IMG/VR virus record: IMGVR_UViG_3300044634_000382 | Span: 1 to 33,680 of that record | DNA length: 33,680 nt | Source: a virus | Direction: 5' to 3' (one strand) | In this document: positions 3,391 to 33,680 of the stretch, one piece after another | Numbering within the stretch: the first letter of the stretch is position 1 | How the letters are laid out: each line of letters starts with the position of its first letter | Notes under the pieces: model-generated | What the model was told of the DNA's origin: nothing | Databases searched by the model: none | What the model saw: the letters and a program-made list of their open reading frames with translations, nothing else | Program-made: the position numbers and the translations under genes

Positions 3391-3918
3391 CTAGATTTTT
3401 TGGATAGTGAAGTCTCTTAGAGCAAAGGTAGCAGAAGCAGAAATGTATTCGATATCCGATAACGTCGAATCAACTTCAAGATCCGTAAGCGAGATAGGGA
3501 AGCAGTCACGCATCGTGAACTCTACGTTACCATTCATTGCGCTAGTCAGGAATGTCAGGCCAATGTCAGACGTTACAGTATCCTTCTGCTCGTCTTGGGC
3601 CTTGTACGGTCTGTTCTGCAAGGTGTACTGATCGAACTTCTCTGGCTTACCAAGTGCAATCATCCAGTTATAGATCTCAAGATAGTTATCGAGATTCTCG
3701 TTTACCTTGAACGTGACACTCAGCTGTCCGAACTCCAGATGTTCACCTGGCCTTGGGATCTGAACGAAGGGGTTAGGTTGAAACGCTACGGGCAGCGTAA
3801 GAGTAGGAAGTGACACTCTCTGAACCATGAACTCGACAGTAGGAGCACGCGAGAGTATAAACTTATAGCCAGTAGGCGACAAGAAGTTAAGATTATCTGG
3901 TTGATTGTTTACTGACAT
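3391..3918 (-). CDS. gp3: Tail tube-fold protein in the gp3 (tail completion) position
   Basis: 175 aa. The middle part aligns by eye with the tail tube protein gp19 in this window: VQRVSLPTLTLPVAFQPNPF parallels IRATTLPSSTINPIEIPYFG, and FGQLSVTF...YLEIYNWM parallels FDTWAVTV...RHTMEQWH. It is therefore a member of the tail-tube fold. The position between gp23 and uvsY is where cyanophages carry gene 3, the tail completion and sheath stabiliser protein. The length equals that of T4 gp3 (about 176 aa). It has its own late promoter (3937-3944) and a good AAGGAG site. Alternatives are a second tube protein or a gp54-like tube initiator. The fold is well supported; the specific name rests on position. 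Confidence 0.72.
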   Translation of the reverse strand: MSVNNQPDNLNFLSPTGYKFILSRAPTVEFMVQRVSLPTLTLPVAFQPNPFVQIPRPGEHLEFGQLSVTFKVNENLDNYLEIYNWMIALGKPEKFDQYTLQNRPYKAQDEQKDTVTSDIGLTFLTSAMNGNVEFTMRDCFPISLTDLEVDSTLSDIEYISASATFALRDFTIQKI

Positions 3919-5365: not shown

Positions 5366-5373
5366 TATTTATA
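5366..5373 (-). promoter_or_regulatory. T4-type late promoter (TATAAATA) for gp23
   Basis: Perfect TATAAATA on the minus strand, 36 bases before the gp23 ATG, in the short gap after gp22. Together with the strong ribosome site it fits high late expression. Confidence 0.8.
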
Positions 5374-13080: not shown

Positions 13081-13088
13081 TATTTATA
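13081..13088 (-). promoter_or_regulatory. T4-type late promoter (TATAAATA) for gp18
   Basis: Perfect TATAAATA on the minus strand, 44 bases before the gp18 ATG, within the 61-base gap after gp17. No terminator hairpin is seen in the gap. Confidence 0.78.
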
Positions 13089-16703: not shown

Positions 16704-17447
16704 TTATCCAATCATGTCAGTAACAGGAAGACTGAAGGAAGAGATCATCTCATCTTCCATCTTCTGGAGTTCGACAGTAGCATCGTCGTAAATCTTTTCG
16801 CCATTGAACTGGACGCCGCCTGGAAGTTGCATTCCAGTAAACTTAGTCAGGTTCGAACCCCACTGTCTCTTAATCAGAGCAGTGGTGTAGTTCTGAAGCC
16901 ATCTGTCGCCCCATGCATCAGTATAGGTATTAGGATCAATAACTTCGTAGGCTTCTACTAATAGAAACACACCTATGTCAAGTGTGCCCCAATCCATGTC
17001 GATATACAATTTGTTTGTATGGCGGTTGAATCGTAGAGGCTGCTTACCAACAAGAAGTTCTGTGATAAGACCAAGATGTTCCATAACCATATAGTAAGGA
17101 ACCATCGAAACAGATGTCAGTGTATAGAGATCGTTCAGTGCAATCTGATAACGGATATTGAACATATCATCAGACGTCATCGAAGGATCGCCGATAGAAA
17201 ACACGTTTACCGCTCCCAGAACGTTCTCTGGCAGCGTGATGTACTTGTTGTTCATGTCTGTCTGAGTGACCTGATGCTTGTAGTAGATCTTCTCGGTGCC
17301 ATCAAAGTGATAGTCCCAGTAATACTTGAGAGCTTCATCGATACGATCTTCTACCTGATCGTCGTCGACGTTGATCTCGATTACTGGTTTACCTAGCTTA
17401 CGGAGGCAATATTCTTTGAAAGCGGCTCTTGTTGTGGGCACAGCCAT
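16704..17447 (-). CDS. gp13: Neck protein gp13
   Basis: 247 aa, beside T4 gp13 (309 aa) in the 13-14-15 block. Recognisable segments are TTRAAFKEYCLRKLGKPVIE, the VDDDQVEDRIDEALKYYWDY helix and WLQNYTTALIKRQWGSNLTK near 180-200, typical of the gp13 head-completion family. It attaches to the portal after packaging. The ATG at 17447 has an AGGA 11 bases upstream and a late promoter whose sequence overlaps the end of the preceding oxygenase gene. It is the first gene of the neck-packaging operon. Confidence 0.92.
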   Translation of the reverse strand: MAVPTTRAAFKEYCLRKLGKPVIEINVDDDQVEDRIDEALKYYWDYHFDGTEKIYYKHQVTQTDMNNKYITLPENVLGAVNVFSIGDPSMTSDDMFNIRYQIALNDLYTLTSVSMVPYYMVMEHLGLITELLVGKQPLRFNRHTNKLYIDMDWGTLDIGVFLLVEAYEVIDPNTYTDAWGDRWLQNYTTALIKRQWGSNLTKFTGMQLPGGVQFNGEKIYDDATVELQKMEDEMISSFSLPVTDMIG

Positions 17448-17476: not shown

Positions 17477-17484
17477 TATTTATC
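17477..17484 (-). promoter_or_regulatory. T4-type late promoter (GATAAATA) for the neck/packaging operon
   Basis: Minus-strand GATAAATA, 30 bases before the gp13 ATG. It includes the TAA stop of the upstream oxygenase gene. Confidence 0.62.
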
Positions 17485-18049
17485 GAAACTTAGGACCTTG
17501 GATCCAAGACACCAGCGAACGGCGCTCGCCTTTGGTGACTGCAGTCACTCTATGATTCAAGAACGAAGGAAACACCAGGACCGAGCCCTTTGCCTTGATC
17601 TGATCTGCAGGCACTTGTGCATACTGAGAGTCTAGCTCGAAGTCGCCACCCTCATATTCAGAAGGATCGGATAGCTGAATCACGATCGAAAGTTTACGGT
17701 CGTATGCGGTAGGGTTTGCCCAGAACGTATCACAGTGCCAATCATACTTGCCTTTTTGCTCGGCAGTATACTTTGTGTACTGAATGTCTGGAAGGTAGTT
17801 GATATCGAAACCGAATGCATTCCTATTGGCTTCATTTGCATAATACCATAGCGTCTCTGTGACAAACCGACTCTGTCCGTCATTTGGATTGATCCACCTG
17901 ATCTCACTTGATCTGGCATCATTGTTGAATGTGGATCCATCAAACCCAAGGCCAGCATTTGCTGTGGGGTATTGATCACCAATGTCGATAATACTTTGTA
18001 CTTGCGCATCACTCAACGAAGCGTGCCAAAATTGCCATAACTGATTCAT
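17480..18049 (-). CDS. Fe(II)/2-oxoglutarate dioxygenase, prolyl-4-hydroxylase/PiuC type
   Basis: 189 aa from the ATG at 18049, which overlaps the upstream stop (ATGA) and has AGGA nine bases before it. A TTG at 18070 is a weaker choice. The double-stranded beta-helix iron site is complete: His105-x-Asp107 in YDWHCDTFW, His166 in FPSFLNHRVTAV and the 2-oxoglutarate-binding Arg of KGERRSLVSWIQGP (176-177). The SIVIQLSDPSEYEGGDFEL stretch is typical of prolyl 4-hydroxylase-like enzymes. These enzymes use O2, Fe(II) and 2-oxoglutarate to hydroxylate a substrate; the substrate here is unknown. Similar genes are common in cyanophages. Neighbours are a second oxygenase, a sulfotransferase and a desaturase. 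Confidence 0.88.
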   Translation of the reverse strand: MNQLWQFWHASLSDAQVQSIIDIGDQYPTANAGLGFDGSTFNNDARSSEIRWINPNDGQSRFVTETLWYYANEANRNAFGFDINYLPDIQYTKYTAEQKGKYDWHCDTFWANPTAYDRKLSIVIQLSDPSEYEGGDFELDSQYAQVPADQIKAKGSVLVFPSFLNHRVTAVTKGERRSLVSWIQGPKFR

Positions 18050-18666
18050 AGATTCATATCCTCGGGCCAAAAATTAATCATCATACTCTTTCTCTCACCT
18101 TCAACTACTGTATTTATCCAGTGAAAATATCTACTACCCTCGAAGTATATAATGTCGTTATCTCGAGGCATGAATGTTTCGTGGGGGCTATTCTTAATAG
18201 TTTCTGCATCAACCTTCATTGGCTCTGAACAATCAAACCAGTCTAGATCAGATATACAAAGCTCACCACCAATTGTATTACCGACCTTAAGATAACAACC
18301 TATTGTTATAGGTGACATTATAAGACTCTTATCTACTGTATGAAGCCAGGATGAGTCCTGTACAACCGACCCTGCTCTTATAAGGTGATTATAATCACAG
18401 TGGGGTTGAAGACTTTGTCCACTAACTTGATGTTGGAACCAATACTCAATAATCTTACCTGTGCAATCGTATTGCTCTACTTCAAGGAGTTTAAGAACAG
18501 CGTATTCGATCTGAGTCTTTGGCTCGTTCCATTTGAAGAAGTTTGTATAATCTTCGAGATTTATAGTCGTTGGTTTTGATTCAAAGTAGGGAGCTGTTAG
18601 GAATACGGCCGCAAGCTCAGGACTCAGCACCGACTTCTTCGTAATCTTTGATTGACCATGGGACAT
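18046..18666 (-). CDS. Second Fe(II)/2-oxoglutarate-dependent oxygenase
   Basis: 206 aa from the ATG at 18666, which has AAGG eight bases upstream; the open frame reaches 18687 but only with a TTG. The iron-binding facial triad is visible: His89-x-Asp91 (LQPHCDYNH) and His182 (SRYFHWINTV). Arg192 in VEGERKSMMINFWP is the likely 2-oxoglutarate anchor. It lacks close similarity to the neighbouring oxygenase outside these motifs, so it is not a recent duplicate. It overlaps the sulfotransferase gene by 50 bases and the next oxygenase by 4. Substrate unknown; prolyl/aspartyl or small-molecule hydroxylation are both possible. Confidence 0.82.
   Translation of the reverse strand: MSHGQSKITKKSVLSPELAAVFLTAPYFESKPTTINLEDYTNFFKWNEPKTQIEYAVLKLLEVEQYDCTGKIIEYWFQHQVSGQSLQPHCDYNHLIRAGSVVQDSSWLHTVDKSLIMSPITIGCYLKVGNTIGGELCISDLDWFDCSEPMKVDAETIKNSPHETFMPRDNDIIYFEGSRYFHWINTVVEGERKSMMINFWPEDMNL
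18111..18118 (-). promoter_or_regulatory. Possible internal late promoter (GATAAATA) before the PiuC-type oxygenase
   Basis: Minus-strand GATAAATA inside the coding sequence of the second oxygenase, 62 bases before the ATG at 18049. It may be chance: a similar octamer occurs inside gp17 with no gene start after it. Confidence 0.3.
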
Positions 18667-19426
18667 TGTTGAACCTTCCATTAACAAATGCTACATTCTC
18701 TTTAAACGTTTTTGTGCTACAGAACGCTTCGATGAATCCTTGAGGAGCGCACTGCCCGTACGTTCCTTTATTTACCGGCTCTGTATCAATGGGTTTACGT
18801 GCTATGCCAAGTCTATCACAAACAAGATCCATGTTCGTCTGTTCGAACAGATCTTCAAAGAAGAAGTACAGGGGTTCATCAAACACACTATCAAGCGCCT
18901 CTATTGTTCGCTTGTACTCGGGTGCAAGATATGATCCTACAAACAGCTGAGCAATGGGATGCATTTGAAAATCATACCTACTCGAAAGATCAGATATGTT
19001 TTCTATAATTGCTGCTTTCGTAGGATCTACACGCGCCCAGCCTGATCTCTTATGATAGTAGATGTAATCATAAAACATGTTCCAGCAAGACCAAGCGCGA
19101 TCGATTGGATTACGCATTATGTAAACTGGTACAACATCTATTCCTTTATCTGCCAAGCCGTCTTTAAAAAATCTATAGACATTATCACTACTACCCTCAT
19201 AGTGAGTGAAGTCCCCAGTCGGCTTGTCTAGAGATGCAACATGGTCGAACCAAGACTTAATGTCTTTCTTGAACTCGTGAGACTTTGTGAGAGTCGGAAC
19301 AAACGTATCACGCTCGATGATGTTTAACTCTTTCCCACATGATATAAAATCAGGGTGCGTTTCAAAGTATTTGTAGAACCAGGTAGTGCCGGCTTTTTCA
19401 GCACCAACATTCATTAGAAACTTCAT
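18617..19426 (-). CDS. Sulfotransferase (PAPS-dependent, heparan-sulfate type fold)
   Basis: 269 aa. The N-terminal MNVGAEKAGTTWFYKYFETH, residues 5-24, is the 5'-phosphosulfate-binding loop of PAPS sulfotransferases. VYIMRNPIDRAWSCW, residues 101-115, is the 3'-phosphate-binding motif (R-N-P...R-A-x-S). The C-terminal NGRFNNVPWSIKDYEEV is plausible for this family. It would transfer sulfate from PAPS to a hydroxyl or amino group of a glycan, lipid or protein. The acceptor is not known. No signal peptide is seen, so it should act in the host cytoplasm. The ATG at 19426 overlaps the upstream stop (ATGA). A cell-surface or virion glycan target is inference. Confidence 0.85.
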   Translation of the reverse strand: MKFLMNVGAEKAGTTWFYKYFETHPDFISCGKELNIIERDTFVPTLTKSHEFKKDIKSWFDHVASLDKPTGDFTHYEGSSDNVYRFFKDGLADKGIDVVPVYIMRNPIDRAWSCWNMFYDYIYYHKRSGWARVDPTKAAIIENISDLSSRYDFQMHPIAQLFVGSYLAPEYKRTIEALDSVFDEPLYFFFEDLFEQTNMDLVCDRLGIARKPIDTEPVNKGTYGQCAPQGFIEAFCSTKTFKENVAFVNGRFNNVPWSIKDYEEVGAES

Positions 19427-19971
19427 GCAGCACTCGGATCGACTAACGTGTATGTTATCAACTCGCTGTCAAACGTTTCGAATGTCCAGTTTGGAGATGA
19501 TGGTGTCATTGAATGTGTAGCAGTTGATTCAAGTTGATAACAAGACAATAGATCTATGGCAGCTGGTATGTTCGATCCTACAGGAAAGTAAGCACTGACA
19601 CGGGAGATGTTGTGCGATGTGAGAAAGTCGTAGCGCGCCTGAGAAATATCATCACGCCATGCCCATAAAGTGCTTCCATCTTTGTTGGGACCTAAAAAGG
19701 AGAATCTGCTGTAAAGTGTACTATCTACAACGTTACCTATATTGTAAAAAATAGTCAGATCATCGTCCATCATTTTCATTACAAAAGCAGACGGAGTTCT
19801 CAAGATTGGTTGCAGCATTTGCTCTAAAAAAGATATCTTTAGTTGTCGTGTATCAGCTTCAACAGGAAACTTCATATTTTGTTCCAGTTGTTGAAATGAA
19901 ACTTCAATTAAAGGTCTTAAATCTTCCATAGTTAAAGAAGCTGCGTCTATCTTACTAAACGTGTACGCCAT
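19423..19971 (-). CDS. Unknown protein in the accessory cassette
   Basis: 182 aa, family not recognised. The N-terminal half is helical (LTMEDLRPLIEVSFQQLEQN). The middle is beta-rich with aromatic residues (DLTIFYNIGN, STLYSRFSFLGPN). The C-terminal part has a stretch, RYDFLTSHNISRVSAYFPVG followed by SNIPAAIDLLSCYQLE, that loosely recalls the end of a GNAT acyltransferase, but no acetyl-CoA-binding signature is clear. The ATG at 19971 has AGGAAACAG upstream and lies 17 bases inside the desaturase gene; the stop overlaps the sulfotransferase start. It is therefore co-expressed with both. Acyltransferase function is a low-confidence guess. Confidence 0.7.
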   Translation of the reverse strand: MAYTFSKIDAASLTMEDLRPLIEVSFQQLEQNMKFPVEADTRQLKISFLEQMLQPILRTPSAFVMKMMDDDLTIFYNIGNVVDSTLYSRFSFLGPNKDGSTLWAWRDDISQARYDFLTSHNISRVSAYFPVGSNIPAAIDLLSCYQLESTATHSMTPSSPNWTFETFDSELITYTLVDPSAA

Positions 19972-20686
19972 TTCTGTTTCCTATCAAATTAGCGCAGAAT
20001 ACATGAAACTTACCGACATGATTCCATGTGCTATGATGTTGCTTGTGATCTCCATCTCCAAAGCTAAACAAGTGTAGCCAAGGAGACTTTTTTGCGCCGG
20101 TTTCATTGTCATGTGCATAAGTAAATATGAGAGACGTGGTAATCATGTAAGCATTTGGAATCAACCATACGAATACAAGGCCATTGACACCAGCTACGAT
20201 GAATGCAAGTAACGGTAAAGATAACATAACAGACCAGTAGCCTATTGGTTTTTCTAACCAATCTATCACTTTATCTTTGAATAGCCTCTTGAAAACAAGT
20301 GCATGCTTGCGTTCATACTTTGTTACTCGGTGATACCAAAAGAATAGAGCCTTCCATCCCTTATGTTTAGGACTGTGAGGATCATGTTCTGTATCCGCAT
20401 AAACATGATGAGCATAGTGAGCAATTGCCCATGAACGAGGCGGATGAAGTGTAGCCTGCATTCCAATCCAATACAGTAACAGTTGTACCGGTCTTGAAAA
20501 TTTAAACGTGCCATGACATACACCATGGTGATAAGCAATACTCATTCCGTACATAGCAAGCATGAAACTTACTGCTAATGAAATACCCCACCACCATAAA
20601 GGTGCTGTAGCAAAGAATAATGCATACAACAACCCTATAAAAGACACAACTTGTATTACTGTGTGGTAAAAACGTCTATACATCAT
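19955..20686 (-). CDS. Membrane fatty-acid desaturase (delta-9/stearoyl-CoA type)
   Basis: 243 aa integral-membrane di-iron desaturase. All three histidine boxes are present: HHGVCH (53-58), HYAHH (90-94) and HKQHH (214-218). There are hydrophobic segments at about 10-50, 68-80 and 155-190, giving a four-helix arrangement with the His boxes in the cytosol. It introduces a cis double bond in acyl chains of membrane lipids. At 243 aa it is a compact bacterial/cyanobacterial-type enzyme. Desaturases are known as auxiliary genes in cyanophages. The start shares bases with the stop of the 183-aa gene, and the gene heads the enzyme cassette. It is likely to alter host membrane fluidity during infection; this is inference. 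Confidence 0.9.
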   Translation of the reverse strand: MMYRRFYHTVIQVVSFIGLLYALFFATAPLWWWGISLAVSFMLAMYGMSIAYHHGVCHGTFKFSRPVQLLLYWIGMQATLHPPRSWAIAHYAHHVYADTEHDPHSPKHKGWKALFFWYHRVTKYERKHALVFKRLFKDKVIDWLEKPIGYWSVMLSLPLLAFIVAGVNGLVFVWLIPNAYMITTSLIFTYAHDNETGAKKSPWLHLFSFGDGDHKQHHSTWNHVGKFHVFCANLIGNRNGVHV

Positions 20687-21237
20687 TAGAATTTGATTAG
20701 GCAGTGAATCGTTCCTGAAGTCGGCATGTCGTAATTTACAATTGCGAAGCTATTAGCTTGGGCGTTGAATGAACGTGATGTGTTGGCTAATACAACACGT
20801 GAAATATCTCCCCCCTTATAGCCAGCTGTGATTGAGGCGTTGCCAGGCCAATTATTAGCGTTATTGTCTTCTCTTAAAGCTACAACTGTAAGACCTGGGT
20901 CATATAAGTTATCTTCATATAAGGCTTCTAGAAAGCTAGCTGCTGCAAACTGAACCATACCATTTGATTCATTTGGACTAATAGATCCCATAACACCTAT
21001 AAGAGTAGGTTGAACGCTCCAACCATCGTTGTTTGCACTAAAGTATTTGGTAGATTCGTAAAAACGAGCAGGGTTAATTGTAAACCCCTCGCTATCATAT
21101 AGATCACTAAAAGCAATGGCGCCCGAACCCCCGTATCTGTCGCGCATCTCGGACATAGAGATAGAACTACCTGTAGCACGATTGATGTGCGTACGCATAT
21201 CATTCATTGAGATGGCGCCAGATGCGGGGGTCGGCAT
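20686..21237 (-). CDS. Probable virion-associated protein with repeated ISM-x2-MR motif
   Basis: 183 aa. The first 50 residues contain three short related units: GAISMNDMRTHI, SSISMSEMRDRY and GAIAFSDLYDS. Such (A/S)I-S-(M/L)-x-D-(M/V)-R units occur at the N-terminus of many phage tail-associated proteins. The remainder (about 55-183) is beta-rich (GFTINPARFYESTKYFSAN, GWSVQPTLIGVMGSI). The ATG at 21237 has AAGGAT upstream and lies three bases after the 67-aa gene. The precise role is unknown; a fibre- or baseplate-associated protein is the most likely guess. Confidence 0.68.
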   Translation of the reverse strand: MPTPASGAISMNDMRTHINRATGSSISMSEMRDRYGGSGAIAFSDLYDSEGFTINPARFYESTKYFSANNDGWSVQPTLIGVMGSISPNESNGMVQFAAASFLEALYEDNLYDPGLTVVALREDNNANNWPGNASITAGYKGGDISRVVLANTSRSFNAQANSFAIVNYDMPTSGTIHCLIKF

Positions 21238-21861: not shown

Positions 21862-24800
21862 TTAACCTCTGTTGTTTTGAATGGAGTTGATTTTGTCTTC
21901 TAGCTTATTTATATGAGTTTGTTGCTCTTTAATTGCTTCGATCAAGAGTCCGACCATGTTGCCATAACGTACGGCTTTAAATGTTTCGGTTCCTGCGGGG
22001 TCTGTAGCTTCATAGATTACTTCTGGTAAAACTTCCTCTACTTCTTGAGCAATCACACCAGTTGAACGGGATCCATCTTTTTTGTAGTTAAAGTTTACAC
22101 CGTTTAGTGTAAGTAGTTTCTCGAGTGCGTTTGGAATGTTTTCAATATTGTATTTTAGATTTATATCAGATGGAGAACCGTATGCTGTAATGTCCCCAGA
22201 AGCAATTACTGCACCGCCGCTAGTAAGTGCAACCACGGCTCCACCAGTTCTATTGCCGCTGTGGACACGAACTCCATTGGAGAAACGCATTGCGCAGTAA
22301 CCATCATTTAGGTCTACAATATCTCCATCATCTGCAAGGATAATACCTTGCCCTGTTACGTTGCCAACGGATACGTGAATTCCACCAGCAACAGTCAAGG
22401 CGTTCGCAGCTGTGCTCGAACCGTCAAAATAATATGCGGTATTGTTACTGTCATAGAAGATTGGTGCGCGTGACGAAGCGGCTGATTCTGAGTATCTACC
22501 AGCACCGAATACCCAGAAGTTATCGTTGGAAGCTGAACCCGACCAGTTCTGTACAACAAGATCGTTACCACTACCACGAACAGAAGCGTTTGGAGTGCTA
22601 TCCGGCGAGGTGTCTGTATTGAAAGCTACTCTGACGTTATTGCCATTAAGCCAGATTTCGCCATTAGCCCAGATTACACCCTGTGTAACCGATGTGGCCC
22701 CACCGAGCGCAATAGAGGACATAACAGAGCTGCCGGCAGGGTCTGTGTAATACGTAGTGTTATTGCTATCGTAGAAGATAGGTCCGCGTGACGATGTTAG
22801 CGCCGTGAAGTTGCCCGACATATCTAGTTGAATTAAGCTGTTTGAAGCTGACCACCCACCAATACGGAATACGTTGTCGCTGTCGAGGCCCATGTTAACC
22901 GCGAATACACCAGCACGGTGGAACGCCATTGTAGCGCCTAGACCACCGGTAGCATATGCTTGCAGTGGAGCGCTATTATCTGATGTATTTCTGTTAGATA
23001 GAAAATAACCAAACCCAGTAATTATTGTACTAATGTTGGACGCCGCGGCATCAGCAAAATTCCAATAATACGCAGTGTTGGTGCTATCATAGTAGATAGG
23101 TGCGCGTAGCGAGGCAGCGCCTTCAGCATAATCCCCAGCGATTGTCAGGGCTAAAGAGTTACCGCACCAGAAATTGAATGTACCACTGGAAGAACCACTT
23201 GACTGGAACTGCACATTTGTTGCCGCAACACTAGGCGTAGGTGCCCCACTGTATCCGGTCCTGATCCAGAGGCTTTGGGTGCCCGTAGTGCTGATTAATT
23301 GAAAGCCACCGGTGGTATTTTGGTTAACTTTAAACTCACCAAAAACATTCGAACCAGCATTTGGATCGATGTAATATGCAGTGTTGCTATAATCATAAAA
23401 GATTGTTGCACGCATCTCACTCGAAGCAACAACTCTACCGCTCCCCCAGTTTGTCCCACCTGCTGATAATCCACATAACATCGAGCCGTTAATGACTTGG
23501 TGATGCCACGTGGCGCTATCTGATAAATTCCATACCGGACCATAGCTTTCAGTTAAGCGAGCACCAGTGGCATTGCCCGTAGACGCGCCAGAATTGACAA
23601 GAGCAAGTGTTCCGGTTAAGTTAATTCCTGCACCGGCGCTTATTGCACTGCTAAAGGTTTTCACACCTGCAAGTGTTTGATCACCGCTTGTAAGTCCTGT
23701 GGAACCAGTAAAGCCAATCGGACCTTGTGGCCCAGTAGCTCCTTGAGCGCCCTGAGCCCCTTGCGGACCTTGTGGCCCAGTAGGTCCGGCAGGACCTTGA
23801 GCCCCTAGCGATCCGGTAAAGCCAATTGGACCTTGAGGACCTGTAGGACCTGCAGGTCCCTGAGGACCGGTAGCACCCTGAGGTCCTTGAGCACCCAATG
23901 AACCAGTAAAACCGATTGGACCTTGTGGACCTGTAGGACCGGCAGGTCCTTGTGGACCAGTCGCACCCTGAGGTCCTTGAGCCCCTAATGAACCAGTAAA
24001 GCCTATTGGACCCTGGGGACCCGTAGGGCCAGCAGGTCCTTGAGCCCCTTGTGGACCTTGAGCACCTAATGAACCAGTAAAGCCTATAGGACCTTGCGGT
24101 CCTGTAGCCCCCTGAGGCCCCTGCGCGCCAAGCGATCCGGTAAAGCCAATTGGGCCCTGAGCTCCTTGAGCCCCTTGCGATCCAGTAAATCCGATTGGTC
24201 CTTGAGCACCTTGAGCACCCTGAGGCCCCTGGGCTCCTTGTGCTCCAAGTGAACCAGTAAACCCAATAGGTCCCTGAGCACCCAGCGATCCAGTAAAACC
24301 GATTGGTCCTTGTGGACCAGTAGCACCCTGAGGTCCTTGAGCACCCAATGACCCCGTGAAGCCAATTGGACCTTGAGCGCCTAGTGAACCAGTGAAACCA
24401 ATAGGACCTTGCGATCCAACGAATCCGGTATCACCCTTATCACCTGTTCTGACAAAAGTAACAATAACATCTAGGTTATTTGCAAACGATGTAGCTCCAC
24501 TCAACCAGGCTACTGGAACAGAGAAGCTATTTGCGCCATGAGAGTGTGCGCCAACAATAGTAAAATCAGCAGAGTTTAATGTATTAGCTTGTTCAAAGGC
24601 TTTGAACGTGCCTTTAACTGCAGATGTCGAATCATCAATTGTTTGCAAGAAGTTGTAGTTATTAGCACTAAGTTGATCAAGAAAATTGATATAAAGTGTG
24701 TTTGCTGTAGATAGATTTGAGTTATTGAAGGCCATGAAGCCGCTTGCAGGAGTAGTATTTGTAGTATTACTGCTGAACAGATACTCAAAGGAAGCTCCGC

Positions 24801-25593
24801 CGAAGTCTCCCTTGTCCCCTTTCGATCCTGTGAAACCAGTAGACCCATTGAAACCAGCTGGTCCTTGAGCTCCAAGAGATCCAGTAAAACCAGTTGCACC
24901 TAGAGATCCTGTAAATCCAATTGGACCCTGAGCTCCAAGAGAACCAGTAAACCCAATAGGACCCTGCGCACCCAACGAGCCAGTGAAACCGATAGGACCT
25001 TGTGGTCCTGTAGGTCCTTGTGGCCCCGTAAGACCAATAGGTCCTTGTGGTCCTGTTGCTCCTTGAGCCCCTTGTGGGCCAGTACTACCAGTAAAGCCTA
25101 TTGGACCTTGAGGTCCAGTGGCCCCTTGTGGTCCTTGTGCCCCCAGCGATCCAGTAAAGCCAATAGGACCCTGAGCACCTAATGAACCTGTGAAGCCAAT
25201 AGGACCCTGATCACCTAATGAACCAGTAAATCCAATTGGACCCTGATCACCCTGAGGTCCTTGTGCACCTAGTGATCCGGTAAATCCAATTGGACCTTGT
25301 GCACCCAATGAGCCCGTGAAGCCTATTGGACCTTGTGCGCCTAATGAGCCCGTGAAGCCTGTAGAACCTTGAGGACCGGTGGCACCCTGGGATCCTGTGA
25401 ATCCAGGATTGTTCGACCAGTATACTGCGGATCCGTTTGATACAAGACCCTGGCCAGCAGAACCAACACTACCGTTGGCTGAGATGCTGGTTGTCGTTAA
25501 GGTGTTAGCGGTTACGTCACCATTCGTCTCAATAACAGAGACGTTATTTCCTACAGCAAGGCCATTCCTTGCAATGAACTTTTTATCGGCCAT
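21862..25593 (-). CDS. Collagen-like tail fibre protein with S74 chaperone (third in transcription order)
   Basis: 1243 aa. Order: a short N-terminal segment with the linker [20 protein letters not shown] (41-60), a first Gly-X-Y run (about 64-270), a globular insert of about 130 aa ([12 protein letters not shown]...[17 protein letters not shown]), a second Gly-X-Y run, the linker [18 protein letters not shown], then four copies of an [11 protein letters not shown]-type module separated by beta domains. The C-terminal 102 residues are an S74 intramolecular chaperone. SDINLK holds the Ser1142/Lys1147 pair used for self-cleavage, and [13 protein letters not shown] is the conserved core. The protein should form a trimeric, host-binding fibre. 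The N-terminus is short, so attachment may use an adaptor. The ATG at 25593 follows AGGG. Confidence 0.88.
21906..21913 (-). promoter_or_regulatory. Late promoter (TATAAATA) embedded in the end of the fibre gene
   Basis: Perfect TATAAATA on the minus strand, 46 bases before the ATG at 21860. It lies inside codons for Thr-His-Ile-Asn at the C-terminus of the upstream fibre. It probably drives the small genes and perhaps the enzyme cassette. Confidence 0.6.
23690..24447 (-). repeat. Collagen-like Gly-X-Y coding repeat, fibre at 21862-25593, second run
   Basis: Tandem 9-base units encoding Gly-Pro-Gln, Gly-Pro-Ile, Gly-Phe-Thr, Gly-Ser-Leu and Gly-Ala-Gln, in higher-order units such as [15 protein letters not shown]. 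The peptide is highly regular, but synonymous codons vary from copy to copy. Confidence 0.9.
24797..25404 (-). repeat. Collagen-like Gly-X-Y coding repeat, fibre at 21862-25593, first run
   Basis: About 200 codons of Gly-X-Y, dominated by the unit [12 protein letters not shown]. It ends at [11 protein letters not shown], where a globular insert begins. Confidence 0.9.
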
Positions 25594-25626
25594 CGAGTTC
25601 CCTATCCCTCAGATGCTACTTTTGTT

Positions 25627-28600
25627 TCACTTTTTCAGTGAATTGATTTCTTGTTGCATGTTATTTATATGAGTTTGCTGTTCCTTGATGGCTTCAATTA
25701 GCAGAGGAACAATGCGCTCATAGTCTACTGTAAGATAACCACGACCAATAGGAGCTCCGGTTACAACTTCTGGCAATACTGCTTCTAGTTCCTGAGCAGA
25801 AACACCGACTTCTCTTGCTGGTTTGTATCCAAGTTTCTGTGCAGTCTCATTCGCCTCGTAATAGAAACCATTTAGTTTACAAACTTTATCAATTGCGTTG
25901 GTGATATTCCCAAACTTGGTTTTCAGTCTATCATCAGAATAGTATGCAATGATGTTACCAGCAGCGCGGATGGAGTCCCCGGTAGTATTGAAGTCGGCAT
26001 AGTAAGCTGTATCATTCTGGTCGTAAAAAATTGGAGATCGTGCGGATCCATCTATAACAGTATAACCACCTGTGCCGCCTGTAAGAGTTAGTGCAACAGC
26101 TGTATCATTACCAACCCCACCACGAGCTTTTAGGTTTGCCTCCATGTACACAGTCCCAGAGTTGAAATACGCTCCTCCAGGAAAATGAATATAACTTGAT
26201 GCAGTAATATATGGATTAGACGGGCCAAATGTGATATTGCCGTTAAGGCTTAACGCAGTTGCACCGGTGCCATCAAAGTAAAACGCTGTGTTGTCATTAT
26301 CGTAGAATATATTAGCATAAAGATTGCCAGAATAACCATTGTTATAAAGAGCGAACCGGTTCCACGCAGTAGTGCCACTTGCATTTGTCGATCTATAGAA
26401 TATACTGTTACTAAAGAAGTCAGCAGCAATCTGCATTGAGTAATAGTTTGCATCGTTGCTATGTGTAGCAGCAATCATGTGCATCCAGCTACCATTGTAC
26501 GGCCAGCCTTCAGCTGTGGTAGGAGTATCATGTTCGTAGAAACCAGAGTCAACGCGAGTTGATATATCTGCTCTGTTGGTAGAGTCCCCTGCAAATGTAG
26601 TCTGTGTACCAAAGGTCCCCGTTGGACCAGTAGGACCAGTCGGCCCCGTAGCTCCTTGTGCACCCTGAGCACCTTGCGGACCTTGTGGGCCCGTAGGTCC
26701 CGCAGGACCTTGCAATCCCTGAGGACCAGTAGGACCAGTTGGTCCTAGTGATCCAGTGAAGCCAATAGGACCCTGCGGTCCAGTAGGCCCAGCACCGCCT
26801 TGTGGGCCTTGTAGTCCTTGAGGCCCCTGTGGACCAGTTGCGCCTTGAGCTCCAAGAGATCCAGTAAATCCAATTGGGCCTTGAGGACCAGTTGCACCTT
26901 GTGGACCTTGTAGTCCTTGAGGCCCCTGTGGACCTTGAGGTCCTGTGGGCCCGGTAGGACCTATCGCCCAAGATGATGAACTTGTGCTGGATGTATAGGT
27001 GCCGCCATTAGGAATGTTAACTTGTCCAGGCATCCACTTAATCGCCGCATCGTCACCATTGGTAGAGGCTATACACAACCATCCCTCGCCAGGATCCCAT
27101 GTTGAGTTTAAATAGTTAGTTACTCTAAATCTTGTTTGATCTGAAGCCTGACTTTGCCCAGGTGTTACCTGATACCACAACGCTTCCCACGCAGCTAGGG
27201 GCACACCTGAAGCCGTTGCAGTAACAGTTGTTGTGACATTTGATGGGTTATAATACGTAACTGTTCCAGAAGTAGGACAATTAATGTCAATATATCCATC
27301 AGAGCTGAACTCTGTTCTTTCCACAGGAATAGCTATGACTCGGGCGGTCCACTTGATGAAGCTACTAATCCACGAAACAGTTCCTCCACCCGAAAGAACA
27401 TAATTAGCCATAAACGTATTATATTCAGTTGGTCCTTGAGGTCCTGTTGGTCCGGTCGGTCCTATTGGGCCTCCTGGGCCTTGTGGACCTTGGGGTCCTT
27501 GCGCGCCGAGCGAGCCCGTAAATCCTATTGGACCCTGAGGTCCTTGAGGACCAGTAGGACCTGGTGGGCCAATAGGACCTTGTGGTCCCAGCGAACCTGT
27601 AAAGCCAATCGGACCCTGTGGTCCAATGGGACCTTGTGGTCCTAGCGAGCCAGTGGCACCTTGAGATCCAGTAAAGCCAATAGGCCCCTGAGCACCTTGT
27701 GGTCCTTGCGCACCAAGTGAACCTGTAAATCCAATCGGACCTTGTGCTCCTTGTGGGCCAGTAGGTCCTTGAGCTCCTTGTGAACCTGTGAACCCTATAG
27801 CTCCTTGTGGTCCTTGTGGACCAGCTGGGCCTTGGGCTCCTTGAGATCCAGTGTATCCTAAAGGACCTTGAGCGCCAGTCGATCCATTGAAACCAGTCAC
27901 CCCTTGAGGACCTAGATCACCTTGTGAACCTGTAAATCCAATAGGACCTTGAGGACCAGTCGGACCAGTTGCACCTTGTGAACCAGTAAAGCCTGCACCC
28001 TGCGATCCAGTGAAGCCAATTGGACCCTGAGTTCCTTGTGGTCCTACTACAGTCGACGCTGATCCTGTGAAGCCAATACTTCCTGTGAATCCTACGTCAC
28101 CTTGTGAACCAGTGAATCCAATAGGACCCTGAGGTCCAACAACACCCTGTGAACCTGTGAATCCTATTGGACCGATAGAACCAGTGAAGCCTATGTCTCC
28201 TTTTGATCCAGTGAAGCCAGTCGAACCAGTGAAACCAGTATCGCCGCGGTTTCCAGCCACAAGAAATGAAACGACAACGTTTGTAGCATTAGCAAGAGGA
28301 GTGGTATTACCAGAAACATATGCTACAGGAACGTCGAAGTGGTTACCATGATCGGTATGTGTGCCGGTGATATTGAAAATTATAAAATTAGCGGAATTAG
28401 CTTCTTCGCTAAGTTTAATAGAACCTTTAATATCAGATGTCGAATCATCGATTGTCTGAATGAATGCAGTTAGATCTGTATCGTTTCTATCAACAGTAGA
28501 GATACCCATCACAGTTGCTTGAGATGGGTTTGTGTTTGTTAGTAGAACATAGCCATCTTCAATGTTTTCAATGAAGATGTCAGTAGACCATTGGTAGTAA

Positions 28601-28779
28601 AAGGATGCACCACCAAATTCACCAGGTTCACCTTTAGAGCCAGTAAAGCCTGCTCCCGAACCCCAGTATGTGGCCGATCCGTTAGATAGCAGAGCCTGAC
28701 CAGCAGACCCGACAGTGCCGTTCGCAACGAGTCCCTTGACACCAATAGGGTTGAAGAAATATTTTGTATCTTTAGCCAT
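25627..28779 (-). CDS. Collagen-like tail fibre protein with S74 chaperone (second in transcription order)
   Basis: 1050 aa. Order: N-terminus with the linker [20 protein letters not shown], a short Gly-X-Y piece, a globular insert related to that of the fibre at 21862 ([15 protein letters not shown] ... [16 protein letters not shown]), a long Gly-X-Y run, a different globular insert of about 150 aa (27428-26966), another Gly-X-Y run, a beta domain, two IFYD-type modules and a C-terminal S74 chaperone. The latter begins at SDDRLK, with Ser948 and Lys953 as the self-cleavage pair. Its last 100 residues are nearly the same as in the fibre at 29995. The ATG at 28779 overlaps the preceding gene by 8 bases. 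Confidence 0.88.
25662..25669 (-). promoter_or_regulatory. Late promoter (TATAAATA) embedded in the end of the middle fibre gene
   Basis: Perfect TATAAATA on the minus strand, 69 bases before the ATG at 25593. It lies in the same Thr-His-Ile-Asn codons as the box at 21906-21913, so promoter and coding end appear to have been duplicated together. Confidence 0.55.
26610..26966 (-). repeat. Collagen-like Gly-X-Y coding repeat, fibre at 25627-28779, C-terminal run
   Basis: About 115 codons of Gly-X-Y with many GPT and GPQ triplets, ending in three or four GPT triplets before [11 protein letters not shown]. Confidence 0.9.
27428..28249 (-). repeat. Collagen-like Gly-X-Y coding repeat, fibre at 25627-28779, main run
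   Basis: About 270 codons of Gly-X-Y, mixing [14 protein letters not shown]-type units with [11 protein letters not shown] units. It is briefly broken at [11 protein letters not shown] and contains one GPP triplet ([10 protein letters not shown]), rare in these fibres. Confidence 0.9.
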
Positions 28780-29998
28780 TCGTTAACTCTATCAGGGTTG
28801 TGTTGCTTACGCGAACTGGAACATAGCTAAACTCAGATGGTATTGTGGCAAAGCTGAGAGCAGTGACTTCTGTATTATATGTAGCCGTCTGCTGAACAGG
28901 GGTAGCACCATTATAACTATATATCGTGGTGTTAGATGTGTATGAATACGCAACCTTGTTTACTGCCTGTTGAGCTCCACAGTTAACCGTGTTTATGAAA
29001 ACGTTATTAGAGCTGTCCACAAACACTCTGTTGGAGTCCATTACAGCAACATTGGATCCTGCAGCAACAGCCGACCACTTGAAGTAGAATGTCCCATTAG
29101 ACTGATTGTATGTCTCGAATGGATTCAGCTGCTTGATAGAAGGTGTTCTGTATCTGAGCTCTGTTCCTACTACACCGAAGCCATACGAAACAAACACAGT
29201 ATTCGATGTTGCAGTGAAGTCGATTGTGTAGGTAGTCTCTGTGGTTGTCACTTCTCTGATAGCAATGTCTTCTGCAGCAATAGAAGATCCTACCGAGATA
29301 GCAGCAGCCTGTCCTTGCACTGCAGAACCGTTATAGACCACCGTAGAAGGGACAAAGAAGGCGTTTGCTTGTACTCTGTAGCGCTGGTTAGGGACAACAG
29401 AAAGTTGTATGTATTGTGAATTTCTATGTTGACCTGACGACTGAATTACAGTATAATCTCCATTGGAGCCCAGGAAAGAACCATTGAATGAAACCAGAGA
29501 GTTGGCACTATACAGCTCGGCCCCTGTCATTCTAGGACCTAGCGTGTTCGCTGTAACAAAGGCGTTTGCGTCCCCAAAGAAGTTGTTGTTTGCAGCACGT
29601 GCTGTCATGTTATTGGCAGCGCCTTCGAAGTAGATTCCTACTCCTTCGGTGTGGCGGATGTTCTTTCCAGAGACCGTGTGCTCTGCATACAGATCAGCAG
29701 GAGTGACTGTCTTCACCATTGTGAACGTGGTAGGATAGACAGAAGGAGTGCATTTGATCTCGCCGACATAATTGTTGACAGATGTAGTGATCTCATCTGG
29801 TCTTGCACCACTGACAGACATACTATCCTGAATCTCAGAAGTAGTAATACCATCTGTTGTAATTATCATCTGAGACACAGAAGAGTCACTCCTGGACACT
29901 ACATGAATGTCCAGGGTGATCATTCTATCCTCTGCTAGATCAAAAGTATCTAGCACCTGAGGAGAGGTAGAGTTTGCTACGTATACAGTAGTTGTCAT
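28772..29998 (-). CDS. Beta-rich virion protein between fibre genes
   Basis: 408 aa, not assigned to a named family. It starts [20 protein letters not shown] and is Thr/Ser/Val/Asn-rich with no collagen run and no S74 domain. About residues 165-300 ([20 protein letters not shown] ... [17 protein letters not shown]) resemble a jelly-roll carbohydrate-binding module by pattern. The last 100 residues repeat short strand motifs ([20 protein letters not shown]). The ATG at 29998 overlaps the stop of the upstream fibre (ATGA), and the gene overlaps the next fibre by 8 bases. It is therefore made together with them, perhaps as a fibre adaptor or a glycan-binding part. This is inference. Confidence 0.72.
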
Positions 29999-32900
29999 CT
30001 TGCTTTCAACATTTCAACTTCGGCACTGAGTTCTTTGATTGCTTCGATAAGAAGAGGAACGACACGCTCGTAGTCCACAGTCAGATATCCATGACCAATA
30101 GGAGCATCTGTCACCACTTCAGGAAGAACCTCTTGTAGTTCCTGTGCCGAGACTCCGACCTCTCTCTTTGGTTTATAGCCAAGTTTCTGTGCAGTCTCGT
30201 TTGCTTCATAATAGAAACCATTCAGCTTGCGGACTTTATCAACTGCATTAGTGATATTTCCGAACTTAGTTTTCAGTCTATCATCGGAGTAGTATGCAAT
30301 GATGTTACCAGCTGCACGAATAGAATCACCAGTAGTGTTAAAGTCAGCATAGTAGGCTGTATCATTACTATCATAGAAGATAGGCGCACGAAGACTGCTT
30401 CCGGCTTGAAGACTGTTGTTGACGTATACGTTGCTGCCGCCGAGTGGATCGCTTCCGTTATTGACTGACATAACCTGAGTAGACATATCATAGTCAGTAT
30501 AGAAGCGCACACCATTATAGGTAGGGTTTGCTCCAATTTTTATGCCGGTGTGGAACGCAATACGTAGGTCAGGGAACGGACTATTCCACGCACCACCTTC
30601 ACGATAAATTGCATAAGCCGTACTGCGGTCACCGCCGAAATACACACCAAACTGGTGATCATCTGAAACAGCTGCTATGTTAGTAAGATAATAGCTTTTA
30701 GTTTCCCACATAACGCTAGTGGCATCTGGATTAGCGTAATAAGCAGTGTTATTGCTGTCGTAGAATATTGGAGCACGAAGGTCTACGTTGTTTGTAAATG
30801 ATGCAGAATTTATGGCTATTTGATTCCAAGCATCATAATCAGTATCCCAACCTGTACGAACCCATAGCCCGTTACCATCAGTTCCATTATGTGGAGCGTA
30901 TAATTGGAACTTAGCTTGTCCGGTACCGGCCATGCTAAGTAGAACCCCGTACATGTATGCACCTGGTCTATTTGAACCAGACCCGTTAGTTACGATTCTA
31001 TAGCTAGCTTCTGATCCATCGATGTAAGTGTTCCAGTCTTCAGATGTTACAGCATCTCTGAAACGAATATAGGTTGTATCGTTTCCGCTGCCAACTAGCG
31101 TACCAGCACCAGCGTTCAGCGTGACTGTAGCACTATTAAAGTTAAACTTTAGTACATCTGATGCATCATGATAGATACCACAATGGGAATACCCAGCGCG
31201 ATGCAGACCAATCCCAGCCGTGCCAGAAGTTGCTTGAACTTCGAGTTGCAAGCCATTGTAGTAGTTAGCCGGAGATGCAATATTGTTGGCAATGATTAGG
31301 TCAAGAAGGTTTGTAGTATTATTACCATCAACATAATAAGCAGTGTTATCACTATCATAGAAGATGGGTGCTCTTGCAGAGGAGCCATCCACAAGAAAAT
31401 AGTCCCCACCAACAACCCTGGCTCTCCAGTTACCGCTTTGATTTAGAAATCCGATGTTATTGGACTGGTCGTAATAAATATAACCGCGGACTGTTCCGTT
31501 GTGGGTGTCCCTAAATCGAATGCCTTGGCCATTGATATTGCCACCACCCATATTCCAGTAATTGCCGGCATCCGAATACCAATGCTGGCCAGTAGATTGG
31601 TTGTACAATCCATTACCACTGCTATTACTTCTAAACCACCCTCTAGCATAATAATCGTTTGTTGTTAGATCAGTATTCAACACGCTAGCAGATGTCGGAT
31701 CGATATAGTAATTAGTGTCGTTGCTATCGTAGAAAATAGACGCATACGCTGGATTTGTGTTATTAGTACTAGATGTAGGAGGAAAAACAGTGTGCGCAAC
31801 ACTCACTGTATGGTACGTAGAGGCTTCTAAGCTGATTACCCAACCAGCATCCCAACGAGTATATTCATAATTAGTATAACCTACCTGAACATCTGTAATG
31901 AATACTTGAGGATATGACCACGCCGAATCTAAGTTGCCAATAATAACATACATGTTAGTACCATCATAGGTAAATCTAACATTCTGGGCCGTGCGATTAG
32001 CTGTGGTCATATACGCAAACGTATTGTACCATAGTCCGGAGCTTGTATGACCACCACAATAGATATCAAATGATAAATTATCATATGTGTATATACGAAC
32101 AGTAAATCGCAGCATTGGGTATACTGTTTCTGGTAGCTTTATCTTAAAAGCGCCAGTCACACTACCAGTTGATAGATATGTACCGCCACCAGGGTGTATG
32201 TTACGTAAACCGGACACGTTGTCGCTAACAGCAGCCTGAGTTAGTATGCTGCTACTAAACGTTTTAACTCCTGCAAGTGTCTGATCGCCACTTGTTAAAC
32301 CGGTCGGACCAGTGGCACCCTGCGGTCCAGTAGCTCCTTGCGCGCCCTGTGCACCTTGCGGCCCCTGTGGACCAGTTGGACCAGTTGGACCTGCAGGACC
32401 TTGTGGTCCAGTAGCCCCAAGTGAACCTGTAAAGCCAATTGGACCCTGCGGCCCAGTAGCTCCTTGCGCCCCCTGAGCACCTTGAGGACCCGTAGCTCCT
32501 TGTGGACCTGAATTCGGACTTGTCCAGTATACTGTGCTTCCGTTAGTGGCAAGAACCTGACCAGATGATCCGTTAGAGTTGTTAGCTGTTACAGTATTGA
32601 CTTTAGCAACGTTTAATATAGATGTGCTAGCAGGGTCGATATAGTATCCAGTGTTGTCACTATCGTACATAAGGGTCGCCCTTATGTCACTGGGGAAATA
32701 AGTATTTTTAAGCTCGTCTACACTAAAAATTGTACGCTTCGATGCAGGATAGCCACCCCAAATCTGCATATTGTATAGAGCAATAGGAAGATAAGCGTAT
32801 TCGCCTGTTGTCGTCCATGTTGGCTGGAAGTCAATGTAGACAGTTTTATAGTGGCTTGTACTTCCAGCAGCATCAATAAACGGTAGTGTATTAAACGGCA

Positions 32901-33680
32901 AGTACATATGCCCAGGCCACGACCCAATTTGAGTGCTGCTATTAGTGACTTGAATAAATGTATTGTCGGCTCTTATTGCACTTATTTTAACAGTTGTAGA
33001 ATGAACGTGACCCGCCCAGTACATGTAAAGAGCATCAAGGAACACATAGCTTCCGTTGTTTATCACTTCAATTCTAAAATATGGAGTGTTGTTTGGAATA
33101 TTAATATTAGACGCAGCGTTACCTCCTACAAACTTTCTTTTCTCTGTATCTGAAAAGCTAGTGTATTCGGTCCATGTACTTCCGTTTGTTGAAGTATAGA
33201 ATTTGATGTTGGCAATCGGATAGAATGCAGTTTTGTTATCAAACTGCTCTTGGAACAAAGCCATTTCGGTAACAGTTGGAGTTCCAAGGTTGTTGGTCGG
33301 CACACCAGTATTACGCTGGAAGTATCTTCCAACATATGTGTTGTCGAATGTTTTTGTACCAGTTATTGTTTGATCGCCGCTTGTTAAACCAGTAGAACCA
33401 GTAAAACCAATAGGACCCTGTGGGCCCGTAGGACCAGTTGGGCCAGCAGGTCCTTGAGGACCTTGTGGGCCAGTAGGTCCTGCTGGACCTTGAGCACCCA
33501 ACGAACCAGTAAAGCCAATTGGACCTTGTGGTCCCGTAGGGCCAGCTGGGCCTTGAGGACCAGTTGCACCCTGAGGTCCTTGCGCACCCAGAGATCCAGT
33601 GAATCCAATTGGTCCTTGAGGTCCAGTGGCCCCTTGAGGCCCCTGTGCCCCTAATGATCCAGTGAAGCCAATATTACCCT
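29995..33680 (-). CDS. Collagen-like tail fibre protein with S74 chaperone, 5' end outside window
   Basis: At least 1227 aa. The open frame runs off the right edge inside a Gly-X-Y run; a TTG near 33501 is only an internal Leu codon, not a start. Order of the visible part: Gly-X-Y run, [16 protein letters not shown] linker, a globular domain with [20 protein letters not shown] and [17 protein letters not shown] (a module I know from cyanophage fibres), an IFYD module, the linker [17 protein letters not shown], a second Gly-X-Y run, a second TGLTSGDQT linker, and several beta domains interleaved with four more [11 protein letters not shown] modules. The S74 chaperone of 97 aa starts at SDDRLK, with the Ser/Lys self-cleavage pair. 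The start codon cannot be seen. Confidence 0.88.
32288..32507 (-). repeat. Collagen-like Gly-X-Y coding repeat, fibre at 29995, inner run
   Basis: About 70 codons of Gly-X-Y between the NGSTVYW linker and TGLTSGDQT. Confidence 0.88.
33378..33680 (-). repeat. Collagen-like Gly-X-Y coding repeat, fibre at 29995, outer run (continues past window)
   Basis: About 100 visible codons of Gly-X-Y, using the same [15 protein letters not shown] unit as the fibre at 21862. It continues beyond the right edge. Confidence 0.88.

Follow-up and report, generated by a model that had tools for sequence, protein, structure and literature searches.

A conserved four-gene enzyme operon at a cargo site of T4-like phages from aquatic bacteria, with a possible role in surface chemistry

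The IMG/VR virus record IMGVR_UViG_3300044634_000382, from an uncultured virus of bacteria and analysed here over its entire length of 33,680 bases (the window), carries a cassette of five overlapping enzyme genes on the minus strand at 17480–20686. An earlier note, made from the DNA letters and their translations, had placed these genes between the fibre region and the neck operon, and a check of the open reading frames (ORFs) and their coordinates confirmed this. In order of reading they encode a membrane acyl desaturase (19955–20686, 243 aa), a 182-aa protein with a predicted GNAT fold (19423–19971), a sulfotransferase dependent on 3'-phosphoadenosine 5'-phosphosulfate (PAPS; 18617–19426, 269 aa) and two Fe(II)/2-oxoglutarate (2OG) oxygenases, A (18046–18666) and B (17480–18049). 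Consecutive genes overlap by 17, 4, 50 and 4 bases. These figures use the starts supported by relatives, ATG 18666 for oxygenase A, which is preceded by a Shine-Dalgarno-like GGAAGG, and ATG 18049 for oxygenase B, rather than the upstream TTG codons at 18687 and 18070, up to which the two ORFs are open.

Do these genes form a selected functional set, as the earlier note proposed? For the first four the case is strong; for oxygenase B it is not. A scan of IMG/VR for the neck protein found 80 related loci, in several of which these enzymes occupy the corresponding site, and profile scans with the sulfotransferase, oxygenase A and the desaturase gave 194 sulfotransferase loci (contigs counted more than once), which fall into 18 clusters at 90% identity. 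All four core genes are present in 15 clusters; the 18 include one made up of the window itself and a few that are fragments. These scans rest on short conserved peptides and partial contigs, all clusters are drawn from a single collection, and many of the contigs are repeats of the same phage. Every contig with this sulfotransferase has oxygenase A immediately downstream, and upstream of it the 182-aa protein and the desaturase follow in the same order wherever the contig is long enough. The order is kept down to 27% identity for the desaturase, 37% for oxygenase A and 46% for the sulfotransferase. The overlaps are conserved in relatives as well, in particular that between sulfotransferase and oxygenase A, at 14–50 bases. 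The 182-aa protein was scanned for with a profile of a closer subset, since a profile of all relatives was too diverse. Among the resulting 64 loci, 54 have all four genes, nine end at a contig edge before the desaturase, and one (L349) has only the desaturase and the 182-aa protein; independent scans likewise found no 182-aa protein without a desaturase unless the contig ended first.

Two loci keep only the first pair, and the core can be described as two inseparable pairs. L349 lacks exactly the sulfotransferase and oxygenase A, as one block (at 3540–3550), with unchanged neighbouring gene families on either side, and no sulfotransferase of this family occurs elsewhere in the 57.8 kb record. 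In L016, which looks shaped by recombination or decay at the site, a truncated desaturase is fused in one ORF (802–1905) to the start of the 183-aa gene that lies ahead of the desaturase; next come a 182-aa gene with a frameshift and another 2OG oxygenase, and neither the sulfotransferase nor oxygenase A is present. Correlations between distance matrices are highest for sulfotransferase and oxygenase A (r = 0.92), followed by 0.84 for the 182-aa protein and sulfotransferase, and lowest for desaturase and neck gene (r = 0.35).

Judged from the ratios of nonsynonymous to synonymous substitution rates (dN/dS) among relatives, all four core genes are under purifying selection: 0.09–0.22 for the desaturase, 0.21–0.29 for the 182-aa protein, 0.07–0.15 for the sulfotransferase and 0.09–0.15 for oxygenase A. 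With such values (0.07–0.29 overall), and with the frames, order and overlaps recurring in many independent contigs, the cassette frames are not due to chance. Such constancy of order across many aquatic phages that are only distantly related makes it very probable that the four enzymes act together.

Oxygenase B is evidently mobile accessory cargo outside this core. It matches 2OG-FeII_Oxy_3 (1.2e-15) and phrog_61 (1.7e-31), a common phage family with matches in 369 phage records, and it stands next after oxygenase A in L001, L002 and L085. In freshwater-type relatives (a label that is our own reading of the sample codes) a related gene lies far upstream, and among relatives generally the position varies or the gene is missing. 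Looking in relatives for the same five genes in the same order, as the earlier note had suggested, therefore returns four of them as a unit, with the fifth variable in place or missing. Independent carriage at the site, which the note would have taken as pointing to generic cargo, was seen for oxygenase B; for the four core genes it was absent apart from the two first-pair loci.

The earlier note had called the individual family assignments solid. This wording was generous: by sequence, only the desaturase and oxygenase B pass the Pfam cut-offs, which the sulfotransferase and oxygenase A fail to reach. By family and motifs, the desaturase is a membrane acyl desaturase of the SCD/DesC type: it matches FA_desaturase (PF00487) at 9.4e-13, with 48.9 bits against a curated cut-off of 29.7, and its best profile match is to Acyl-CoA desaturase 1 (4ymk, 8.5e-13), placing it closest to SCD1. 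The diiron histidine boxes (HxxxxH, HxxHH, a single H and HxxHH) have the SCD arrangement, all nine histidines (H53, H58, H90, H93, H94, H192, H214, H217 and H218) are invariant in six divergent members, and hydrophobic segments span residues 6–32 and 147–188.

Sequence searches assign the 182-aa protein to no family. Its AlphaFold2 (AF2) model, with a mean predicted local distance difference test (pLDDT) score of 93.6, indicates the topology of the GNAT (N-acyltransferase) fold. Foldseek against the PDB gave 1tiq at 8.5e-8 and 366 chains at E <= 0.001, with nearly all of the top 50 being GNATs, and VIA Z scores reached 11.4 over 152–155 residues. Identity to most positional counterparts is only 16–22%, and homology to them is supported by hhalign (probability 95.6, E 1.1e-8). 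We speak of a GNAT-fold protein and not of a GNAT acetyltransferase because the canonical Q/RxxGxG/A loop for the acyl-CoA pyrophosphate, between strand 4 and helix 3, is unrecognisable; in its place the window has PNKDGST, and most relatives have xxGSR.

The sulfotransferase scores 19.1 bits in Pfam against a cut-off of 27, but its identity is confirmed by conserved motifs together with the predicted fold. The motifs VGAEKxGT, which forms the 5'-phosphosulfate loop, and YIMRxPxxRxWSxW, which holds the R...S motif for the 3'-phosphate, are invariant, with R105 and S113 unchanged in 16 members. In structural comparison, the AF2 model (pLDDT 79.8) matches NDST1, a bacterial sulfotransferase and 3-OST alike, at Z 15.2–15.9 (8ccy for NDST1, Z 15.9 over 226 residues; 3rnl, Z 15.7; 3-OST, Z 15.2). 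More broadly, the predicted fold and PAPS motifs resemble those of heparan-sulfate N- and 3-O-sulfotransferases and of the sulfotransferase domain of a cyanobacterial olefin synthase (4gox), with VIA Z 13.8–15.9, but sequence identity to these enzymes is only 11–18%. In a profile alignment, the invariant Glu77 falls on the FEKSAN stretch of NDST1, whose glutamate we take to be catalytic.

Oxygenase A likewise scores below the cut-off for 2OG-FeII_Oxy_3 (7e-5, 24.1 bits against 27), and again the conserved motifs confirm the assignment: the HxD...H iron triad and the 2OG-binding arginine (H89, D91, H182 and R192) are invariant in 18 members. There is a weak match to WelO5 (2.7e-4). Halogenases of the WelO5 type have a glycine in place of the Asp/Glu iron ligand, and the invariance of Asp91 rules out this assignment and argues for a hydroxylase-type centre.

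The core sits within a busier neighbourhood. Most of the related loci that contain the neck gene hold other genes at this site, which is therefore best described as a general hot spot for cargo, with the conserved module as one occupant among others. In the window, the downstream border is the neck gene (head-tail adaptor, phrog_211 at 2.3e-41; 16704–17447, minus strand), 32 bases beyond oxygenase B, and with it on the downstream side lie genes for sheath-stabiliser, terminase, sheath, tube and portal proteins. Upstream lie three genes for collagen-like fibre proteins; between two of these is a gene for a 408-aa protein (28772–29998) that has no PHROG match at E 0.001 and a 26% relative in L072. 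Directly upstream of the desaturase is a 183-aa gene (20686–21237, minus strand), whose stop overlaps the desaturase start by one base; a gene of similar size precedes the desaturase in L084 and L132 also. In L144 (6226–6756), with counterparts in about 12 clusters, this position is taken by a protein of 177–197 aa that has a sulfotransferase-like P-loop start (PRCGAT) and no confident family; for the 177-aa form, Sulfotransfer_1 appears at E 0.1 in one member only. The preceding stretch of L144 (3739–6226) holds two DUF6065-like genes and a PF11397 N-acetylglucosamine (GlcNAc) transferase, as found upstream of the core in many relatives. The freshwater-type relatives share this arrangement (one DUF6065-like gene detected by Pfam, both by PHROG 7084), add further 2OG oxygenases to the cassette run and have, on the minus strand, GT2-like and DUF6445 genes ahead of the neck gene. 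The glycosyltransferases, DUF6065 proteins and extra oxygenases in the same run would suit surface chemistry. No RNA families or tRNAs were found.

When is the cassette expressed? The motif TATAAATA, which we take to be the late-promoter consensus of T4, has four exact copies in the window against 1.2 expected, all on the minus (coding) strand and near gene starts, at 21906–21913, 25662–25669, 13081–13088 and 5366–5373. On sequence grounds, these are likely to be T4-type late promoters. The copy at 21906–21913 lies about 45 bases ahead of a 132-aa gene, which begins a run continuing through a 92-aa gene and the 183-aa gene into the cassette. Beyond it there is no copy within the cassette, and the next one is only at 13088, ahead of the sheath gene. 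Eleven relatives with the cassette have the motif 34–42 bases ahead of the neck gene, so that a late-promoter role is credible in this clade. With a motif ahead of the fibre-side genes and none within the set, the cassette is probably transcribed late, together with those genes.

At the DNA level, phage collections gave relatives of the neck gene only, and plasmid collections gave nothing. Protein searches of 50,697 cultured-phage records found no relatives of the sulfotransferase, the 182-aa protein or oxygenase A, and the sole INPHARED match to the desaturase, at 29%, is in Pelagibacter phage Mosig. About 85,000 bacterial and archaeal genomes were scanned with patterns of short conserved peptides, which may miss distant relatives; these scans gave no relatives of the sulfotransferase or oxygenase A, and so no bacterial source operon from which a function could be borrowed. 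The portal protein is closest to that of Stenotrophomonas phage DLP6 (57.5%), followed by Synechococcus phage S-RIM8 (56.0%). A cyanophage origin gained no support: psbA (Photo_RC) is absent from eight related records, including the cassette-bearing 128.8 kb record G001.

Several known systems bear comparison. Stand-alone viral desaturases have been described from sea-ice and brine viruses (PMC7300359) and from cyanophages (vFADs; Roitman et al. 2018, as cited in PMC12285232 and PMC11480375). These are also phage-encoded membrane desaturases proposed to alter host membrane lipids, whereas that of the window belongs to a fixed operon and has the GNAT-fold protein, the sulfotransferase and oxygenase A as partners. 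Like the hyperplastic region of T4-like cyanophages, which lies between g15 and g18 according to the citation of Millard et al. 2009 in PMC2984593, the site holds variable metabolic cargo within a T4-like structural module, but its place is ahead of the first neck gene, on the side of the fibre genes. In phage Mosig (MT647606, L293), a different desaturase cluster encodes Asp/Arg-hydroxylase-domain proteins, one of them next to the FA_desaturase, and genes for a dioxygenase and an N-acetyltransferase-domain protein lie close by; this cluster differs in gene order, in having aminotransferase, FMN reductase and peroxiredoxin genes and in lacking a sulfotransferase within the stretch seen. By analogy, it could perhaps represent a similar pathway. 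No description of the four-gene operon was found in the papers searched, and the one that mentions both a sulfotransferase and a desaturase treats them separately.

What might the four enzymes do together? Our preferred reading, to which we assign a probability of about 0.4, is that the four-gene operon, probably expressed late, modifies a compound of the host envelope or the virion surface in T4-like phages of aquatic bacteria, with oxygenase B as extra cargo. We infer that the enzymes would act on one acyl-containing product. The desaturase would introduce a double bond into the acyl chain of a host acyl-CoA or acyl-ACP (acyl carrier protein) and its constant partner, the GNAT-fold protein, might hand the acyl group to an amine or otherwise assist. 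Oxygenase A would then hydroxylate, and its own constant partner, the sulfotransferase, would add sulfate from PAPS made by the host. The two constant partnerships, of desaturase and GNAT-fold protein on one side and of hydroxylase and sulfotransferase on the other, would fit a product bearing acyl, hydroxyl and sulfate groups, and late expression together with surface-type neighbours (glycosyltransferases and further oxygenases) points to the envelope or the virion. Late in infection, the surface would presumably become negative, more fluid or masked. That the product is specifically an unsaturated acyl compound with both a hydroxyl and a sulfate group, such as an N-acyl sulfolipid, made late and placed on the infected-cell envelope or the virion, is a doubtful proposition. 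We know of no phage in which such surface chemistry occurs.

Several points weigh against this reading. As far as the sequences go, the gene set, its order, overlaps and conservation, the intact catalytic motifs and the purifying selection are established, but the route of desaturation, hydroxylation and sulfation envisaged in the earlier note is hypothetical and its product a prediction. The sulfotransferase is most like glycan enzymes, and a lipid acceptor is not singled out. With its acyl-CoA loop unrecognisable, acyl transfer by the 182-aa protein is a guess. No APS kinase or acyl carrier protein domain was found in the records examined, so that phage-borne supply of either substrate was rejected and both PAPS and acyl donors would have to be provided by the host. 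Finally, the desaturase distances correlate less with those of the other core genes (r = 0.54–0.66), which suggests that this gene has partly been exchanged on its own.

The last observation, together with the two loci that retain only the desaturase pair, the stand-alone desaturases of cyanophages and sea-ice viruses and the distant ones that turned up in our profile scans, would be expected if two independent pairs were merely travelling together, one tuning membrane fluidity and the other modifying a glycan or small molecule. Yet the order and overlaps of all four genes are conserved in every other cluster, beyond what sharing a hot spot would produce, and we regard two separate functions as a doubtful explanation also. 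More extreme independence, with five unrelated host-derived genes in a hyperplastic site and no joint function, is suggested by the many other genes at this site in related phages and by the movement of genes of the oxygenase B type. It is very improbable, and for the four core genes largely refuted, because their order holds across divergent phages of separate samples and neither the sulfotransferase nor the 182-aa protein was found alone.

The target could instead be the virion proteins themselves, with enzymes that hydroxylate, sulfate and glycosylate fibres or other virion proteins, thereby changing adsorption or masking the particle, and a desaturase with a separate role in the membrane. 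The cassette is packed against the fibre-side genes under the same putative late promoter, and the freshwater relatives encode a PF11397 protein, a GT2 enzyme and several 2OG oxygenases; eukaryotic members of the PF11397 family modify proteins. Still, a membrane acyl desaturase is a constant member of the set, without an obvious part in protein modification, and the fibres make poor substrates for at least one such reaction. The three collagen-like proteins (21862–33501) contain 320 Gly-X-Y triplets in which proline is the commonest X residue (136 of the 320) and glutamine and threonine dominate Y, with proline not among the eight commonest Y residues, which account for 315 of the 320. With proline at X, the fibres have essentially none of the classic X-Pro-Gly sites on which collagen prolyl-4-hydroxylase acts, which makes its canonical reaction on them unlikely, a conclusion that concerns X-Pro-Gly sites only. 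Taken as a whole, decoration of virion proteins appears unlikely.

Viral cargo genes have usually been described singly. Here, four unrelated enzyme families are found in constant order, overlapping one another, across divergent phages, which is strong evidence for a joint function and provides a defined, testable gene set. If the proposed sulfated or acylated surface compound is indeed made, these phages would remodel the surface of the host or the virion by means of a dedicated pathway, with consequences for superinfection, for grazing and for dissolved lipids and sulfur in natural waters.

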